Origin: Verrucomicrobiia bacterium
GTDB taxonomy: Bacteria > Verrucomicrobiota > Verrucomicrobiia > Opitutales > Cerasicoccaceae
Direction of reading: 5' to 3'
Length of the DNA stretch: 64,000 nucleotides
Assembly: GCA_030425485.1 (NCBI GenBank)
Contig: JAUIAM010000019.1
Span: 1-64,000, forward strand
The notes under the pieces: generated by a model
The model's database searches: none
What the model saw: only the letters and a program-made list of their open reading frames with translations
Told to the model about the DNA's origin: nothing
Program-made: the position numbers and the translations under genes
In this document: positions 51,520 through 59,655 of the stretch, in pieces
How positions within the stretch are numbered: the stretch's first letter is position 1
Layout: each line of letters opens with the position of its first letter

Positions 51520-52122
51520 ATGATGAGATTACCCCAACTCTTCCTATTCGCGGCGTTCACCCTTGGTCTGGGACTTGCCGTTGCCCAGGGCCAGAACGCT
51601 CCCATTACTGTTGATAACGTAAAATTTAATTCCGGTGTTAATCCCTACGACTGGAACAACATCACCATCAAGCTGCGGGCGAACAATAACCCGGACCCCG
51701 AAGCGATTAACCCCCGCTATGTGGACAATATCACCGTCCGCATGGCCGTGGCTTATGAAACCAAGTCAGAAAATCAAAAGTTCATCGCTTTTGAATGCGA
51801 GGTAAACATTGCCACGATGGAAGTGGGTAAGGACAAGACGTTCGCCCTTTGGATTCCCTACGACATCGTCGAGCGGGGCAATTTCGGTAAAGAGCCCTAT
51901 GGCTGGGCGATTGAGATTCAGGTCGACGGTAAGAAACTGCAGCCTACTCGCGACAACACCTCGAGCAACATCAGCAATGATGCGGCCCTTCAAAGTTTTT
52001 ACAGCAACGCTGTCAACCCAACGGCCAGTGAAAACGAGGGGGTAATGGTTCCTTATTACCTTTCTCCCTACGGCCCAATTGACCGCTCACCGCCCGCCTT
52101 CATCCGTAAGGAGCCCAAATAA
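51520..52122 (+). CDS. Amuc_1102-like pilus-associated protein
   Basis: The 200-residue product has a signal peptide (LPQLFLFAAFTLGLGLAVAQ) and a beta-rich mature domain (APITVDNVKFNSGVNPYDWN, NPRYVDNITVRMAVAYETKS). It is the first gene of the set that in Akkermansia muciniphila encodes Amuc_1102, 1101, 1100, 1099 and 1098, in the same order. I infer orthology from position and pattern. Function is unknown, and the family is tied to a pilus-like or type II secretion-like complex. The ATG at 51520 begins the signal peptide. Eighty-five bases with a stable hairpin (52129-52164) separate it from the PilM-like gene. Confidence 0.75.
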   Translation: MMRLPQLFLFAAFTLGLGLAVAQGQNAPITVDNVKFNSGVNPYDWNNITIKLRANNNPDPEAINPRYVDNITVRMAVAYETKSENQKFIAFECEVNIATMEVGKDKTFALWIPYDIVERGNFGKEPYGWAIEIQVDGKKLQPTRDNTSSNISNDAALQSFYSNAVNPTASENEGVMVPYYLSPYGPIDRSPPAFIRKEPK

Positions 52123-52128
52123 TCGGCT

Positions 52129-52164
52129 GCAACGAATTTGCGCTTAGACAAAGAAATTCGTTGC
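52129..52164 (+). other. 11-bp stem-loop between the Amuc_1102-like and PilM-like genes
   Basis: GCAACGAATTT (52129-52139) pairs with AAATTCGTTGC (52154-52164) across a 14-nt loop. No U-tract follows, so it is not a standard terminator. It may set relative mRNA levels or stability between the first gene and the rest of the pilus operon. Confidence 0.5.
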
Positions 52165-52206
52165 GCTAGCTGATAATACCATTGAGAACGATACCTTTTC
52201 GTCTGC

Positions 52207-53844
52207 ATGAGTTCCCCCAAAACCTTGATAATTAACTGCGGAGCCAGCCACGTCTCTGCCGCAATGTTCACCCAAAACAGCGGCGACCTGGTGCTCGAGG
52301 ATTTCGTCATCGAAGAGCTCGATTACGATTACTCGATCGATGAGGAGTGGCTCGATAGTCTGATGGTGGCCCTGCGCAATATCTGCCACAGCCACAAGCT
52401 CAGCGGTGCTGCCAGCCTGATCGCGCCCGGCTACCAACTGCTGACCAAGACGATCAAGGTGCCGCACGTCGATGATGCCAAGCGCCCGCAGATCATTGCT
52501 TTTGAGGCTCAGCAGAATATCCCGTACCCACTGACTGATGTCGTCTGGGACAATCAGGTCATCGCGGACGACGGGGTCGAAACCGAGGTTATCCTGATCG
52601 CGGTTAAGTCAGACGTCATCAATGGCTTTTGTAAGGAAATCTCCCATACCGGGCTGACCCCGCAGGCCATCCCCGCTGCCTCCATCCTCGATTACAACTC
52701 CTACCTCCTGAACTATCAGGACTCGCAGGAAGACACGCTGATCGTGAACATCGGGGCGCGCTCATCCAATCTGATTTTCTGCAACGAAGACGGGTTCTTT
52801 ATCCGCAACATCGCCCTCGGCGGTAATTCGTTGACCCAGAATCTGGCCGATAGCCTGGGTAAAAAATTCTCCGAAGCCGAAAAGGTTAAGGTCGCCTACT
52901 TCTCCGGGCAGACTAGCTACGAGGCCGACCACCCCTCCGTGCAGATCCTGCAAACCAACGCGGAGAACTTTCAAAAGCGCATGAATCAGGAGATCACGCG
53001 CTCCATCGTGAATTTCCGCCGTCAGCACGGGGCCAAGGCTCCGACTCGCATCCTTCTGACAGGGCGTGGCTCGCTGCTGCCTGACCTGCCGGACTTCCTC
53101 CGCCAGCATCAGAAGATGGAGGTCGAGTACTTTGACCCGCTCAAGAACGTCCACGTCGGTAGCAAGGTTGAAGAGGAATTGCTGGCCGACAGCCGGATCA
53201 GCCTCGGTGAAGTCATCGGTGAAGCCGCGCGTCAGGTCCTGCCCGAGCCGGTCAGCATCAACCTGCTGCCCGCGACCTTGGCCGAAGAGATGCGCTTCGC
53301 CAAGCAGCGCCCGATCATTATCGTGGCCGCCGTATTACTCGCACTGGCCACGATTCCGCCGATCCTCGGCTTCCGCAGCACAGCCAGTCAGTACGAGGCC
53401 GCTACCCGTGCCATCGAGGGTAAGGCTGCCCCGCTACAGAACACACACCGCCAGATTTTAAGCAATCAGGACGAAACCAAGAAGCTCCGGGATGACATCA
53501 CCAACCTGGAGGATCTGGTGAATTCACGGTCTAATTGGATCATTTTCTTTACCGATTTGCAGCAGCGTCTTCAGGACGTACAGGATGTCTGGCTCGAAAG
53601 CCTGGAACTCAATCGAGTGAACGGAAACCGCCTGGACATGACTGGGCGAATCCTTATTACCAACACCGAAGACGATCAGGATGTTTCAAAGCGAGTGAAT
53701 TCTCTGCTCGAAAGCTTTACCGAATCCGACTTCATTGTTGAAGTCGACGACGTGATCCTCGTGCCCGCCTCCAACGATCCGATCGGCGAGCACATCCGCG
53801 AATTCAAATTTACACTTATCGCCAACCCGGAGCGCCCCCTCTAA
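52207..53844 (+). CDS. PilM/PilN-fused pilus assembly protein (Amuc_1101-like)
   Basis: This 545-residue protein has an actin-like PilM ATPase domain: LIINCGASHVSAAMF at the start, LIVNIGARSSNLIFCNEDGFFI, FIRNIALGGNSLTQNLADSL and RILLTGRGSLLPDLPDFL. After about residue 365 there is one membrane helix (IIIVAAVLLALATIPPILGF), a coiled coil and a periplasmic PilN-like domain. PilM and PilN are usually separate genes, and the fusion fits the Amuc_1101 family. The protein would form the cytoplasmic and inner-membrane ring connecting to the secretin via the next two genes. It starts at ATG 52207. Confidence 0.86.
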   Translation: MSSPKTLIINCGASHVSAAMFTQNSGDLVLEDFVIEELDYDYSIDEEWLDSLMVALRNICHSHKLSGAASLIAPGYQLLTKTIKVPHVDDAKRPQIIAFEAQQNIPYPLTDVVWDNQVIADDGVETEVILIAVKSDVINGFCKEISHTGLTPQAIPAASILDYNSYLLNYQDSQEDTLIVNIGARSSNLIFCNEDGFFIRNIALGGNSLTQNLADSLGKKFSEAEKVKVAYFSGQTSYEADHPSVQILQTNAENFQKRMNQEITRSIVNFRRQHGAKAPTRILLTGRGSLLPDLPDFLRQHQKMEVEYFDPLKNVHVGSKVEEELLADSRISLGEVIGEAARQVLPEPVSINLLPATLAEEMRFAKQRPIIIVAAVLLALATIPPILGFRSTASQYEAATRAIEGKAAPLQNTHRQILSNQDETKKLRDDITNLEDLVNSRSNWIIFFTDLQQRLQDVQDVWLESLELNRVNGNRLDMTGRILITNTEDDQDVSKRVNSLLESFTESDFIVEVDDVILVPASNDPIGEHIREFKFTLIANPERPL

Positions 53845-53853
53845 TCGCCTGAG

Positions 53854-54915
53854 ATGGAAAACCTCAAGAAATACCCTGCCTTTTTTGGCCTCCTGGGCCT
53901 CTTCCTGGTCATATTTATTGCCGGGCTGGTCTTTATCTTTTTATCGCTCTCCGCTGCCGGCAAGGCTAAGGAAGACTTCGAGCGCGCCCAGCGTGACCTG
54001 AAAAGTGCGGCCACGCTATCACCGGCCCCCAGCAAGGAAAACCTCGCAGCCTCTGAGCAAAACATTCGTGACCTGGCCGCTGCGCTGGAGCGCCAGATCA
54101 AGGCGACCCGCGGACGCGCTCCCGAGTTGCTCGATCGCCAAAAGGCACCCACGCAACCGGTTACCATGCTCGTGCAATTGGAGAACTTTGCCTCCGACTT
54201 CACCAAGGAAGCCAAAACGATTGCTCCCCAAGGCAGTGAAGATGACGAGACACGCGCCGCAGAGGGCATCAAGCTGCCCGAGAATTTCAAGTTCGGCTTC
54301 GGTCGCTACCTCGATACCGGGCAACAGCCAGATGAGAAGATCATTCCGGAGTTGTTCAAGCAGAAGCAAATCCTCTCTTTCATCCTCCGCCGCCTATACG
54401 ACAGCCAGCCCTTCTCTATCGAGAGCATACAGCGTGAGTCGCTGGTCGAGGTTGTTCCCGAAAAGGGCAATCAGTCAAACCGCCAGCCGCAGCGCAACGA
54501 CAGCAACAGCAACAAGGGCGAGTTCAAGATCGGCGACATTACCGCCGCCGTCCCGGGCGCAATCGAGACGATGGCTTTCCGCCTGGAGTTCACCGGTTAC
54601 ACCCCGACGCTCCGCCAGTTCTTGAAGAAACTGGAAGAGTTCGAACTGCCGCTGGTCGTGCGCAGTGTGGAAGTAAAGCCAGCCAAAACCAGCAAGCCCG
54701 CTGCCAGCAGCAAACCCGCCTCGAACAATCCTTTCGGGTTCGGCTCGCCCGTGGAGACGCAACCAGCGGCCAGCACGGCTAAAACGCTTGATCCCATTGT
54801 TGAGGAAAATCTTTCTCATTTCACCGTCGTGGTTGAGTACATCCAGGTACTGATTAAAGCCCCATCCGACGTCGCTGCTCTGGAGAGCGCCGGCAACTCT
54901 CAATCCGCCCAGTAA
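53854..54915 (+). CDS. Amuc_1100-like pilus-associated membrane protein
   Basis: The 353-residue protein has one N-terminal membrane helix (FFGLLGLFLVIFIAGLVFIF) and a coiled periplasmic part (LAASEQNIRDLAAALERQIK). A globular domain follows whose final third carries PilO-like features (FRLEFTGYTPTLRQFLKKLE, EFELPLVVRSVEVKPAKTSK). It lies between PilM-like and Amuc_1099-like genes, exactly as Amuc_1100 does in Akkermansia, where that protein is exposed and immunologically active in mice. Here orthology is inferred from position, length and pattern. A PilO-type structural role is likely. The gap to the next gene is 12 bases. Confidence 0.82.
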   Translation: MENLKKYPAFFGLLGLFLVIFIAGLVFIFLSLSAAGKAKEDFERAQRDLKSAATLSPAPSKENLAASEQNIRDLAAALERQIKATRGRAPELLDRQKAPTQPVTMLVQLENFASDFTKEAKTIAPQGSEDDETRAAEGIKLPENFKFGFGRYLDTGQQPDEKIIPELFKQKQILSFILRRLYDSQPFSIESIQRESLVEVVPEKGNQSNRQPQRNDSNSNKGEFKIGDITAAVPGAIETMAFRLEFTGYTPTLRQFLKKLEEFELPLVVRSVEVKPAKTSKPAASSKPASNNPFGFGSPVETQPAASTAKTLDPIVEENLSHFTVVVEYIQVLIKAPSDVAALESAGNSQSAQ

Positions 54916-54927
54916 CTGGTCAGACGC

Positions 54928-55890
54928 ATGAAGCAATTCTACGATAAAATCCTCTTGGTTGTCGCCCTGCTGGCTCTCGGTGGGTCAGCCGCTTACTATT
55001 TTATGGGCCAGGGCGAAGCCCCCGACGGCAGCGGCGCGACCAGTGCTCTTAGCGGCAAGGCATATGACTCTCTACCCGCGCCTCAGCCTGTCGCTGGTGG
55101 CAGCACGGAGTGGCCCGAGGCCGTGCATGTTGGCGACGATGTAAACCGTCTCTACCGCGTCTTCACCCCGCCGAAGATTTACCTCGACCCCGAAACGGGC
55201 GAGTTGACTTGGGACGCACCTTTGGTCGAAGGGGGCGGGCCCGTTGAGGTCATTCCCTTTGGCGTGGAGCTGGTTGCGCTCCAGCGCGAACTCTTCCGCA
55301 TCCAGCTTGAGGCTGACTTCGGCTCCAGCACAGGCAGCAACGACGACGCCATCATCCAGCTCTACAATCACGAGAAGGGTGAAAAAATCCTCGGCAGTCC
55401 CGGTGATGAATACCCAGAGCACGAGTTCAAGATCGTTTCCTTCCGCGTTGAGCGCGTGATTCAGGAAGAAGAGGGCTCTACGGTTATTTTCAAGAACCCG
55501 ATCGTGGTCATCGAAGACCTGCGCGCTGGGCAGGAGATCACGCTTTCCGGCGCCGAGCGACTCTACGTCCCCGGCAAGTTCGAGATCGATATGCGCACCG
55601 AAAGCGAGGGCGAGGCACAGACTTTTACCTGGACCGATGCTGGCCAGACCTACGAATCTACCAACGGGGATGTTTTCACATTACTCGAGTTTAACTTTGA
55701 CAATCAAAGCATCACTGTGGAAAAAATGCCCGCTTCCACCGAAGAGGGACAGCCCGAAGCAGAGGTGGAAGTCTTAACCCCAGTCCAACAAACCCCATCA
55801 AAAACATCCGAAGTTGAGGAATCTGAAGAAATTTTTAAGACGGATTCACAACAAGGTGATACTTTGGATGCTAACTTCTTCAATTTTTAA
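54928..55890 (+). CDS. Amuc_1099-like pilus-associated membrane protein
   Basis: The 320-residue product starts with a short cytoplasmic end and a membrane helix (ILLVVALLALGGSAAYYFMG). Beta-rich periplasmic segments follow (EVIPFGVELVALQREL, IVVIEDLRAGQEITLSGAER) and an acidic tail. It occupies the place of Amuc_1099 between the Amuc_1100 and secretin genes. Its size and topology resemble a PilP/GspC-like connector between inner-membrane ring and secretin. It has no recognisable catalytic motif. The ATG at 54928 is only 12 bases from the preceding stop, and 47 bases separate it from the secretin. Confidence 0.78.
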   Translation: MKQFYDKILLVVALLALGGSAAYYFMGQGEAPDGSGATSALSGKAYDSLPAPQPVAGGSTEWPEAVHVGDDVNRLYRVFTPPKIYLDPETGELTWDAPLVEGGGPVEVIPFGVELVALQRELFRIQLEADFGSSTGSNDDAIIQLYNHEKGEKILGSPGDEYPEHEFKIVSFRVERVIQEEEGSTVIFKNPIVVIEDLRAGQEITLSGAERLYVPGKFEIDMRTESEGEAQTFTWTDAGQTYESTNGDVFTLLEFNFDNQSITVEKMPASTEEGQPEAEVEVLTPVQQTPSKTSEVEESEEIFKTDSQQGDTLDANFFNF

Positions 55891-55937
55891 CAGACAGGCT
55901 TAGCCGCCTGGCTTGCCAACAACACCGTTGCCCTAAC

Positions 55938-58697
55938 ATGATCACACTACGACAATTGTTTCGCCTGACAGCGACTTCGAGCCTGACGCTCGCACTTGCA
56001 GCCTCGGCATTCATCACGACGCCTCTGAGCGCTCAGAGCAGCGACACACAGGAGAAGATCAGCCTGATGTCGGCTGCACTTCGTGCGCGGGATGACGGGA
56101 ACCTCCAAGTTGCCAAGCAGAACCTTGAAGAGCTGCTCAAGCTCGCCCCGAATGACACCAACGTACAACGACTGCTCCTCGCCGTGAATAAGGACATCGA
56201 GCGTCGTGATGCAGGCCAGCAAACCGTCTATGGTCAGGCCGCTAATGTCAGTGACTTCTCTCCCACGGGTACGGCTGCACAGTCCACCACTATTATGACC
56301 ATCGGCGAAGCGACTGACTCCAGTGGCGACACGGTTGTGGTCAGTGAGTCGATCACGCAGTCGGGCACCAATCTCGACGCGCTGCTCCAGTCTGAAGCTG
56401 CGAATCAGGAGAAGGCCATCGCTGATGCGAAGGAAGCCATCAAAAAGGCCAAGGACCTCATCAAGGCTGAGCGCTACGAAGAAGCCGAAGCCATGCTTTC
56501 TCTCGTTCAGGGTACGCTCGTGCTCAACAATGCTACCGCTGGCACCATCGCGGCCATTCGCGAGGTACGCGGCGACATCATTCTCGACCAGGGCCAAGCA
56601 GCCCTTGACAATCATGACGCTGCCAAGGCGGCTGAATTCTTGACCCTTTATCGCGACACCCTCGGTGACGACGAGCGCTCACGCGCATTTGCCGCCAAGG
56701 TTACCGCACTTGAGAACAACCCTTGGTACCAAAATCCTGAGGAGTTGAGCCCCGAATTTATTGCAAACCAGGGTGTGGTAGATGAGCTCATCGTTAAGGC
56801 TCGGGCCCAAATGCTTTATGGTGATTACGAAGGTGCTTCCGCTACCCTGCGTGAAATCGAAGCCCGTGACCCGATTAACCCCGCCGCCAAGAGCCTGCAA
56901 ATTCAGATCCTTGAGCAGCTGCGCGAAACCAACTATCTCGACCACTCTAAGACACGTGACGAGATGCTGCACGAAGTTTCCCGCTCCTGGCAGCGCCCGC
57001 AGATTTTTGACCTCGCAACGGGCGTCACTCCTCCTCCGCCTGACGAAGGTGTCCTCGCCAAGCTGCGCAACATCGAAATTCCGCGCGTAAGCTTCTCCGG
57101 TGTTCCGCTCTCCCGCGTGATCGAGACCCTGTCCGAGCTGTCTGTTGAGTATGACACCCAGGCGATTGAGGAAAAGGACCGTGGCGTGAATATCGTTCCG
57201 GCAAGCTGGGCAGGGCAAGACCCGACGGTCAGCCTGACCCTGCGTAACATCAGCTTGGACAAGATCCTCGACTTTGTAACTCAGTCCGTTAACTACACTT
57301 GGGACGTACAGAACGACGCCGTCGTGGTTCGCCCTGGCGATACGGGTGAGTACCTCGAAACCGAGTTCTTCCCGATCTCGCAGGGGGTGGTCATCCGCTT
57401 GACCGGTGTCGGTGACGAAAGCTCATCTTCCGGCTCCAACGATCCGTTCGCGCCAGCCAGCAGCGGCGGCGGTGGTGGTGGCAGTTCCACCACAGATAAG
57501 GAAGACGCCCTGCTGCGCTTCTTCCAGAAGGCCGGTATTCCTTTCGAAAGCACCAGCGGTTCCAGCCTTGCCTACGACGGCACGCAGCTGATCGTCACGC
57601 AGACTCCAAAGAATCTCGAGAAGATGCAGAACATCCTGCGTCGCTACGACCAGACCAAGCAGGTTGAGATCGAAGCCAAGTTCCTCGAAGTGAACCAGGG
57701 TGTCCTCGACGAGGTGAACTTCAACTGGTCGGTGAATACACCTCCTGCACCTGGAAACCGCTCATCCATTACCACTAACAACCGTTCTCTTTCTAGCGCG
57801 TTCAGCATCAATTCCCAGACCAGCAACATCGTCGTTGATGATGGTGTTGGTGCTCCGCTAGCAGTTCCTCAAACTGCACCTGGCATTCCGAATACGATCG
57901 ACCTCGGCTCTGATGGTGGCCTCTCCGCTGAACTTAGTTTCGGTATTTGGGGCGCGAATGTACAGGCTCTCATTTCTGCCCTGTCCCGTAAGGAAGGAAG
58001 TGACCTGCTGAGCAGCCCGCGCCTGACCGTCCTCTCTGGCCGCACCGCCCAGATCGTTGTGGCTCAAGAGCTGCGCTATCCGGAAAACTACTCCGACATT
58101 GAGTCGGAAGTGGGCACCACCAATGCGGTTGGTGGTGGTGGCTCCGCCGGTGTGACCATTACCGCCGGTACACCGCAGGACTTCACCGTCCGCAACGTTG
58201 GTGTGGAAATGGAAGTTACGCCTACGGTCGAAGTGAACGACAACATCTCGCTCAAGCTTGAGCCGCGTGTGACCGAGTTCGAAGGTTTTGTTGAGTACGG
58301 TGGCCAGAGTGTGGCTATCTCGGGTGGTACGACGATCACCGTTCCATCGGGCTTCTATCAGCCGATCTTCAGCACCCGCGAAGTTCGCACGGAGGTAACG
58401 GTTTACGATGGCGCCACGGTGGTCATCGGTGGTCTGACCCGCGAAGAGGTTAAGACTGTGAATGACAAGGTACCGGTACTCGGTGACATCCCGCTCTTGG
58501 GCCGTCTGTTCCAGTCCAAGGGTGAGACTTCCTCAAAGCGTAACCTGCTCATCTTCATCACCGCCAACCTGGTATCTCCCGGTGGTTCCCCGAGCAAGCA
58601 GCGTCTCAAGAACGTTGAGCCGAACTCGCTCTTCCAGAACCCAATCCTGGTTACTCCCGGTGGTGGCGTGAGCCGCGAAATCCGCGAGCAGCAGTAA
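55938..58697 (+). CDS. Secretin (PilQ/GspD family; Amuc_1098-like outer-membrane pore)
   Basis: This 919-residue secretin has a signal peptide (residues 1-33) and N-terminal helical repeats (residues 40 to about 330). It then has a STN/N-domain region (SFSGVPLSRVIETLSELSVE, LDKILDFVTQSVNYTWDVQN) and a low-complexity Ser/Gly linker near 495-520. The secretin core follows (LLSSPRLTVLSGRTAQIVVA) and its signature VPVLGDIPLLGRLFQ near 850. The helical N-terminal part is unlike classical PilQ and fits the Akkermansia Amuc_1098 type. The product would form the outer-membrane channel for the machine encoded upstream. No pilotin is seen. The terminator at 58724-58757 closes the operon. Confidence 0.93.
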   Translation: MITLRQLFRLTATSSLTLALAASAFITTPLSAQSSDTQEKISLMSAALRARDDGNLQVAKQNLEELLKLAPNDTNVQRLLLAVNKDIERRDAGQQTVYGQAANVSDFSPTGTAAQSTTIMTIGEATDSSGDTVVVSESITQSGTNLDALLQSEAANQEKAIADAKEAIKKAKDLIKAERYEEAEAMLSLVQGTLVLNNATAGTIAAIREVRGDIILDQGQAALDNHDAAKAAEFLTLYRDTLGDDERSRAFAAKVTALENNPWYQNPEELSPEFIANQGVVDELIVKARAQMLYGDYEGASATLREIEARDPINPAAKSLQIQILEQLRETNYLDHSKTRDEMLHEVSRSWQRPQIFDLATGVTPPPPDEGVLAKLRNIEIPRVSFSGVPLSRVIETLSELSVEYDTQAIEEKDRGVNIVPASWAGQDPTVSLTLRNISLDKILDFVTQSVNYTWDVQNDAVVVRPGDTGEYLETEFFPISQGVVIRLTGVGDESSSSGSNDPFAPASSGGGGGGSSTTDKEDALLRFFQKAGIPFESTSGSSLAYDGTQLIVTQTPKNLEKMQNILRRYDQTKQVEIEAKFLEVNQGVLDEVNFNWSVNTPPAPGNRSSITTNNRSLSSAFSINSQTSNIVVDDGVGAPLAVPQTAPGIPNTIDLGSDGGLSAELSFGIWGANVQALISALSRKEGSDLLSSPRLTVLSGRTAQIVVAQELRYPENYSDIESEVGTTNAVGGGGSAGVTITAGTPQDFTVRNVGVEMEVTPTVEVNDNISLKLEPRVTEFEGFVEYGGQSVAISGGTTITVPSGFYQPIFSTREVRTEVTVYDGATVVIGGLTREEVKTVNDKVPVLGDIPLLGRLFQSKGETSSKRNLLIFITANLVSPGGSPSKQRLKNVEPNSLFQNPILVTPGGGVSREIREQQ

Positions 58698-58723
58698 GCT
58701 CTGCTTCTGTTAGAAACCTTTCG

Positions 58724-58757
58724 AGCGGCAAGACGTAATGTCTTGCCGCTTTGTTTT
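58724..58757 (+). terminator. Strong intrinsic terminator of the pilus operon
   Basis: AGCGGCAAGAC (58724-58734), GTAAT loop and GTCTTGCCGCT (58740-58750) form an 11-bp perfect stem followed by TTGTTTT. It lies 26 bases after the secretin stop and ends the 51.5-58.7 kb operon. Confidence 0.92.
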
Positions 58758-58776
58758 ATCTACCAAGGCTCTTGAT

Positions 58777-59655
58777 ATGGCGAAAATCCTCCTGCTCGAC
58801 GGCTTCAATCTCGCATTCCGCAGCTACTATGCCCTGCCGGATTTGACCCGCAGTGATGGCTTTCCCACCGGCGCACTCCATGGTTGGGTAAAGACCTTGT
58901 GGAAGCTGGAGGACATGGAGCGTCCGGACCGCATTGCGGTGTTCTTTGATGAGGGCGGCTCCGATCGTCACCTTGAGGTGCTGGCGGATTACAAGGCCAA
59001 CCGGACAGAGATGCCGGAGGCTCTCTCGCAGCAGTTGGAGTCACTGCGTGAGGTTACACGGCTCATGGGGTACCCGGTGGTCTCTCAGCGCGGCGTAGAG
59101 GCTGATGATCTCATTGCATCGGCCGCTCGTAAGCTTGCTTCGGACGAAGAGCGGGTTGTGGTGGTCAGCGCGGACAAGGACCTGGCCCAGCTGGTTTGTG
59201 AGCATATCTGGCAACTGCTGCCCGCGCCAACGGCTAACCCGCGTCTTGGTTGGCGGCGTTTGGACCGCGATGGTGTGGTGGCAAAGTTCGGTGTGCCGCC
59301 GGAGAAAATCCCGGATTACCTGGCTTTGGTCGGCGATAGCTCGGACAACATTCCTGGTGTTGCGGGTGTGGGGCCAAAGACTGCGGCACGCTGGATCACA
59401 GAGTACGGTGACATCGCAGGGATTCTGGCCGCGGCTTCGGCCATCAAGCCACCCCGCTTTCAAGCGCTCTTGCCAGACTGTGGCGAGCTGCTGGACCGTA
59501 ATCTCAAACTGGTCCGTTTGGAGGATACTTTCGATGTCCCGGATTTGGCGGTGAAGGCACCGTCGACCCATGCTTTGAGTGATTTTCTCTCCTCGATGGA
59601 AATGAAGAGTGCAGCAAGCCAAACGATGGATAGATATGGTTTGGGGCTGAGATAG
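58777..59655 (+). CDS. 5'-3' exonuclease (FEN/PolA-N-terminal type)
   Basis: The 292-residue protein is a stand-alone flap-endonuclease-like exonuclease. It has LLLDGFNLAFRSYYALPDL (first aspartate), GVEADDLIASAARKLA, SADKDLAQLV and the H3TH region VGDSSDNIPGVAGVGPKTAA, the usual acidic metal ligands and helix-three-turn-helix. It lacks the polymerase domain of PolA. The enzyme trims 5' flaps during Okazaki processing or repair. The ATG at 58777 begins the conserved fold, while the frame's earlier start at 58738 lies in the terminator. No operon partners follow. Confidence 0.9.
   Translation: MAKILLLDGFNLAFRSYYALPDLTRSDGFPTGALHGWVKTLWKLEDMERPDRIAVFFDEGGSDRHLEVLADYKANRTEMPEALSQQLESLREVTRLMGYPVVSQRGVEADDLIASAARKLASDEERVVVVSADKDLAQLVCEHIWQLLPAPTANPRLGWRRLDRDGVVAKFGVPPEKIPDYLALVGDSSDNIPGVAGVGPKTAARWITEYGDIAGILAAASAIKPPRFQALLPDCGELLDRNLKLVRLEDTFDVPDLAVKAPSTHALSDFLSSMEMKSAASQTMDRYGLGLR

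Follow-up and report, generated by a model that had tools for sequence, protein, structure and literature searches.

What kind of envelope machine is encoded by an Opitutales locus that resembles the Amuc_1098-1102 cluster of Akkermansia muciniphila, and what does it suggest about the native role of Amuc_1100, an immune-active protein that has been studied as a probiotic effector? The window, meaning the whole stretch of 64,000 nucleotides that we analysed (contig C39), belongs to the genome, 3.81 Mb in 62 contigs, of a marine-type bacterium; among named relatives, its 1101 protein places it nearest to MAG JB024 (69%) and to Cerasicoccus species (57-58%). NCBIfam models named five plus-strand open reading frames at 51520-58697 as Amuc_1102, 1101, 1100, 1099 and 1098, in that order (Table 1; hereafter designated by number), which bears out both the gene content and the order proposed by an earlier, sequence-only reading of this DNA. 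The strong terminator that it placed after the secretin gene was also recovered; the stem is followed by TGTTTTATCT and was the top plus-strand match of the scan. The gene directly past the terminator encodes a stand-alone 5'-3' exonuclease, a relative of the DNA polymerase I N-terminal domain, and further on lies a repetitive exported protein with a PEP-CTERM-like tail (VPEPGTVIGGGVLVLLAGAYLHTQRRKK), for which no match was found in NCBIfam or Pfam.

Table 1 Features of the five-gene locus and its downstream neighbours in the window.
Feature	Size or structure	Coordinates	Strand	Evidence	NCBIfam cut-off (bits)
Amuc_1102-like	200 aa	51520..52122	+	NCBIfam 22.8 bits, E 6e-5	55
Amuc_1101-like	545 aa	52207..53844	+	NCBIfam 355 bits, E 8e-106	650
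Amuc_1100-like	353 aa	53854..54915	+	NCBIfam 93 bits, E 2e-26	180
Amuc_1099-like	320 aa	54928..55890	+	NCBIfam 23 bits, E 4e-5	50
Amuc_1098-like secretin	919 aa	55938..58697	+	NCBIfam 389 bits, E 4e-116	750
Intrinsic terminator	13-pair stem, T-rich tail	58723..58751	+	hairpin scan	
Stand-alone 5'-3' exonuclease		58774..59655			
Repetitive exported protein	433 aa	59769..61070			

None of the five products reached the curated NCBIfam equivalog cut-off of its family (Amuc_1098/1099/1100/1101/1102_fam), and we therefore regard them as distant homologues and do not file them as equivalogs. The similarity to Amuc_1098-1102 is nevertheless real, as emerged from the profile and predicted-structure comparisons that the earlier reading had suggested. 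Single-sequence searches of the PDB with the window 1100 and 1102 proteins gave no credible match. A profile of 1100 built from Opitutales alone, with no Akkermansia rows, had the solved Amuc_1100 structures 6LAD, 6KNY and 6LAF as its top PDB matches (E 5e-7). Similarly, an AlphaFold model of 1102 made from Opitutales sequences only (pLDDT 88) matched the Amuc_1102 structure 7DSZ with a Z-score of 14.9 over 161 residues, compared to 7.8 for the runner-up structure, although the Opitutales-only sequence profile of 1102 missed 7DSZ. Lastly, the 1101 profile matched PilM (E 1e-60, positions 1-344) and PilN (E 1e-7, positions 350-527) in the PDB. Taken together, these three results exclude chance, and also exclude a likeness limited to the secretin domain. 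The Akkermansia cluster, of which amuc_1099-1102 are known as MUL2, agrees with the window locus in all five genes and in their order, but identity to its proteins is low (14% for 1102, 15% for 1100, 15% for 1099, 24% for 1101 and 27% for 1098) and the hosts belong to different orders, Opitutales here and Verrucomicrobiales for Akkermansia.

The distribution of the locus does not support one element of the earlier reading, namely that its occurrence outside Akkermansia is remarkable. The five-gene order was whole in 17 of 19 genomes sampled over Verrucomicrobiota, an Akkermansia among them; of the two exceptions, one had no detectable 1102 and the other no detectable 1099. Among named Opitutales loci with enough length, the order was whole in 33 of 35, and a 1101-type PilM was found in 258 of 289 sampled Verrucomicrobiota genomes (E < 1e-20, a cut set by the analyst on the phylum-wide match table). 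The locus has been reported across Akkermansiaceae and other Verrucomicrobiales, more rarely in Chthoniobacterales and not in Methylacidiphilales (PMC13174399, 2026). Given this published spread and the presence of 1101 in 258 of 289 genomes, occurrence outside Akkermansia is expected, and that in Opitutales widens a known pattern.

In 1101, an actin-like PilM domain (Pfam PilM_2, E 5e-26) is followed by a transmembrane segment at approximately 365-383 and a PilN-like C-terminal part; on the sequence evidence, it is a PilM-PilN fusion in a single chain with the layout of GspL. The 1100 protein has a single N-terminal transmembrane segment and is PilO-like, and its profile matched the genome's own canonical PilO weakly (E 2e-5, probability 77%). 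Iteration of the 1100 profile also recruited the C-terminal part of 1101, which fits PilN/PilO kinship but could reflect coiled-coil composition. For 1099, we found one transmembrane segment, then a disordered linker in which the motif FTPPKI is conserved, and a region rich in beta structure at approximately 109-285. No match of 1099 to canonical PilP was obtained in profile-profile comparison (probability 0.2%), and its predicted model (pLDDT 83) gave no significant fold match, with a best Foldseek E of 0.018 and a best VIA-align Z of 5.5 to unrelated viral proteins; since neither sequence nor fold matches, 1099 is likened to PilP/GspC by position and layout alone. The 1098 protein combines a TPR-like N-terminal region with a C-terminal secretin pore (Pfam Secretin, E 7e-37; TPR and STN matches were weak), and its family profile matched both TPR structures and GspD/PilQ secretins. 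No AMIN domain was matched in 1098 by Pfam at E 0.01, a missing profile match being weak evidence. GspD scored slightly ahead of PilQ against 1098 (148.6 versus 131.8 bits). Both these scores and the GspL layout of 1101 are compatible with a T2SS-like secretion machine, in which pseudopilins and a GspL-like fusion would push proteins through the secretin with no surface filament, whereas the actin-like domain of 1101 is that of PilM and speaks against such a machine.

We then compared the locus to the other secretin machines of the same genome. A five-gene operon, pilM-N-O-P-Q, lies on contig C46; it is syntenic within the genus, and its secretin scored best as PilQ. Contig C56 carries a complete T2SS, comprising GspD, E, F, L, M, K and pseudopilins. 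The window locus is thus a third, distinct secretin machine of this genome, different from both the canonical pilus ring and the T2SS. Membership of the locus in a gsp operon found no support on contig C39, from which GspE, GspF and pseudopilins are absent. It does share with the T2SS a GspL-like fusion, a secretin and a cluster of five prepilins, and differs in the PilM-family actin-like domain, in the PilT of the motor cluster linked to it (see below) and in its coexistence with a separate T2SS, which weighs against the secretion reading. A 307-aa protein on contig C60 (L116:7102-8025) matched the N-domain and part of the secretin domain only, and we regard it as a truncated or solitary secretin-like protein.

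The most familiar interpretation would be that the locus is the ring of an ordinary type IVa pilus, as when Amuc_1098 is called PilQ in reviews (PMC10688800). Homologues of PilM, PilN, PilO and the secretin do occur in an order parallel to pilMNOPQ, and a motor of PilB, PilC and, for the majority of Opitutales, PilT is assigned to the locus by orthology and by the co-occurrence of one PilB, though not by physical linkage. However, PilM and PilN are fused here and separate in the type IVa pilus, a TPR region marks the secretin, in which AMIN gave no match, 1099 is not detectably PilP, and an additional Ig-like protein (1102) is present. The canonical operon on C46 argues against the simple view that the window ring is that of the organism's ordinary type IV pilus, and across 52 Opitutales genomes 1101 and canonical PilM showed no association (both/one/other/neither: 16/15/13/8, p 0.57), consistent with independent inheritance. 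We consequently consider the type IVa interpretation highly unlikely.

A scan of the whole of contig C39 found no PilB/PilT ATPase, PilC or prepilin, so that the earlier observation that these genes are not adjacent extends to the entire contig; the gene identities likewise agree with the earlier view that the locus supplies the ring and pore part only. The search for the missing parts elsewhere in the genome, also suggested by that reading, yielded candidates on two contigs. Contig C40 carries the run PilB40b-PilT40-PilB40a-PilC40, and 1101 and PilB40a co-occurred strongly in the 52 Opitutales genomes (30/1/1/20; Fisher p 3.4e-12). Presence cuts (1101 E < 1e-60, PilB40a E < 1e-200) were set after viewing the gap in the score table, and PilB40a was the one motor gene covered by this test. 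Related genomes are not independent, a concern lessened by the count at the family level (15/1/1/11, p 6e-6) and by concordance within families, as f3, f65 and f68 each contain members having both genes and members lacking both. The clearest picture came from genomes with secretins of this type alone, in which a single PilC, also of the C40 type, is retained. The single PilC of an Akkermansia genome (G024, whose 1100 is approximately 96% identical to the PDB Amuc_1100) is 46% identical to PilC40 and has orthologues of both PilBs as neighbours (54% and 49%). An Opitutales genus, g15, has one secretin, which is of the 1098 type, one PilC (approximately 50% to PilC40) and PilB40a (54-56%). On the basis of co-occurrence and orthology, the C40 PilB-PilT-PilB-PilC cluster is likely the motor of the window machine, an assignment that for Akkermansia may be partly known already.

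Two further observations concern secretins and ATPases outside these clusters. Both secretins of the same Akkermansia genome are closest to 1098, and the second of them (841 aa; L206:6900-9425, plus strand) lies off the five-gene locus. In the window genome, contigs C8 and C57 encode PilB-like ATPases with 58% mutual identity (L086:6296-8149 and L087:6507-8879) that lie away from any PilC or secretin gene, the former preceded by two response-regulator-like genes.

The place of PilT in the motor cluster bears on whether the machine retracts a fibre or secretes proteins. In the window's own genus and in at least three other Opitutales loci, the cluster includes PilT, which argues against the secretion reading, and coordinates show a PilT-sized gap between the two PilBs in approximately 20 of 31 genomes and no gap in approximately nine. 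The cluster occurs without PilT in Akkermansia, in Verrucomicrobiales and in the Opitutales families f62, f75 and f77. Genus g15 (G116 and G205; L201-L204) retains the ring, PilB40a and PilC40 with no other secretin, and no PilT-family protein was found above the cut-off in either genome. Retraction is therefore not essential everywhere, and it is chiefly this ring and motor without PilT that keeps the secretion reading alive. Across the phylum, PilT and 1101 were associated (254/4/22/9, p 3e-7), an association to which we give little weight because a single family supplies over half of the nine genomes that lack both.

The candidate filament is a five-prepilin cluster on contig C18 (L117:5786-9264). 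Genus g15 also has a five-prepilin cluster, and Akkermansia a shorter cluster together with one prepilin adjoining pilC. With the N-terminal helix removed, pilins 1 and 2 of the window genome matched prepilins of the cluster in g15 (E 3e-19 to 8e-11), and Akkermansia gave matches to pilins 3 and 5 (E approximately 6e-9), compared to a single weak match (E 5e-5) for T2SS pseudopilins; not all five C18 pilins were matched in each of these two comparators. The C18 cluster likely encodes the filament of the window machine, and orthology covers part of its pilins. The genome as a whole (G000) has 58 prepilin-type N-terminal methylation motifs, 53 of them above the curated cut-off and mostly in solitary genes of 240-290 aa, which is far above the needs of three filament machines. 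A weak T2SSG match in pilin 1 adds to the points in favour of the secretion reading, which, with the evidence from the separate T2SS, the PilM domain and PilT on the other side, we judge unlikely overall.

It could also be supposed that the machine is a glycan-attachment pilus with 1102 (MUL2A) itself as the pilin, given its Ig-like fold and a published likeness to archaeal type IV pilins (PMC13174399). In the window protein, a Sec-type signal peptide precedes an Ig-like beta sandwich, and the N-terminal regions of its homologues close with a cleavage site of the Sec type; one of 44 homologues has a class III prepilin motif, probably because its start was mis-called. The presence of Sec signal peptides without a prepilin motif disfavours 1102 as a pilin, and separate true prepilins were present in every genome examined, making this supposition barely credible. 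We propose instead that 1102 is an exported Ig-like accessory.

Given the separate T2SS and pilMNOPQ operon, and the PilT gene or PilT-sized gap in most Opitutales, we favour a dedicated filament machine. It seems reasonably probable that the window locus is the trans-envelope part of such a machine, with its motor on C40 and its filament on C18; the genes for ring, motor and pilins are spread over three contigs, and physical linkage was not seen. The sequence-only reading, which holds for gene identities, order and scope and fails on the oddity of the locus outside Akkermansia, had left secretion-like and pilus-like function side by side; the data lean towards the filament machine, with secretion kept as the rival. 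We infer the assembly, retraction, substrate and function of the machine as follows. An inner-membrane alignment complex would be formed by 1101 (PilM-PilN), 1100 (PilO-like) and 1099 (PilP/GspC-like), and the two PilB paralogues of C40 would polymerise the C18 prepilins via PilC. The alignment complex would steer the fibre through the outer-membrane secretin 1098, where it would exit, and the fibre would retract where PilT is present. In this way the cell would hold on to glycans or particles, and it may also draw in polymers.

The most economical reading is that the machine probably makes a surface filament with which the cell attaches to glycans or takes them up. The Amuc proteins of Akkermansia are abundant in the envelope (PMC5332112), MUL genes are required for intracellular mucin accumulation (PMC12418764), and marine Akkermansiaceae take up fucoidan (PMC13174399); the role in mucin or glycan accumulation and the surface display of 1100 have been reported for Akkermansia only (PMC5332112, PMC12418764, PMC13174399). 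We propose that much of Verrucomicrobiota inherited the filament machine from a common ancestor, and that it is distinct from the canonical type IV pilus and the T2SS of the same cell. A bolder version, possible though doubtful, would make it a distinct ancestral Verrucomicrobiota branch with its own ring, a dual-PilB motor and a five-prepilin filament, in which glycan polymers are pulled through the TPR secretin and Amuc_1100 is primarily a PilO-like strut of this uptake machine. The literature that we found assigns no motor or filament to the machine of Amuc_1100, and the present comparison names candidates for both. Together, these results suggest that Amuc_1100 natively plays a structural part, one that long predates life in the gut.
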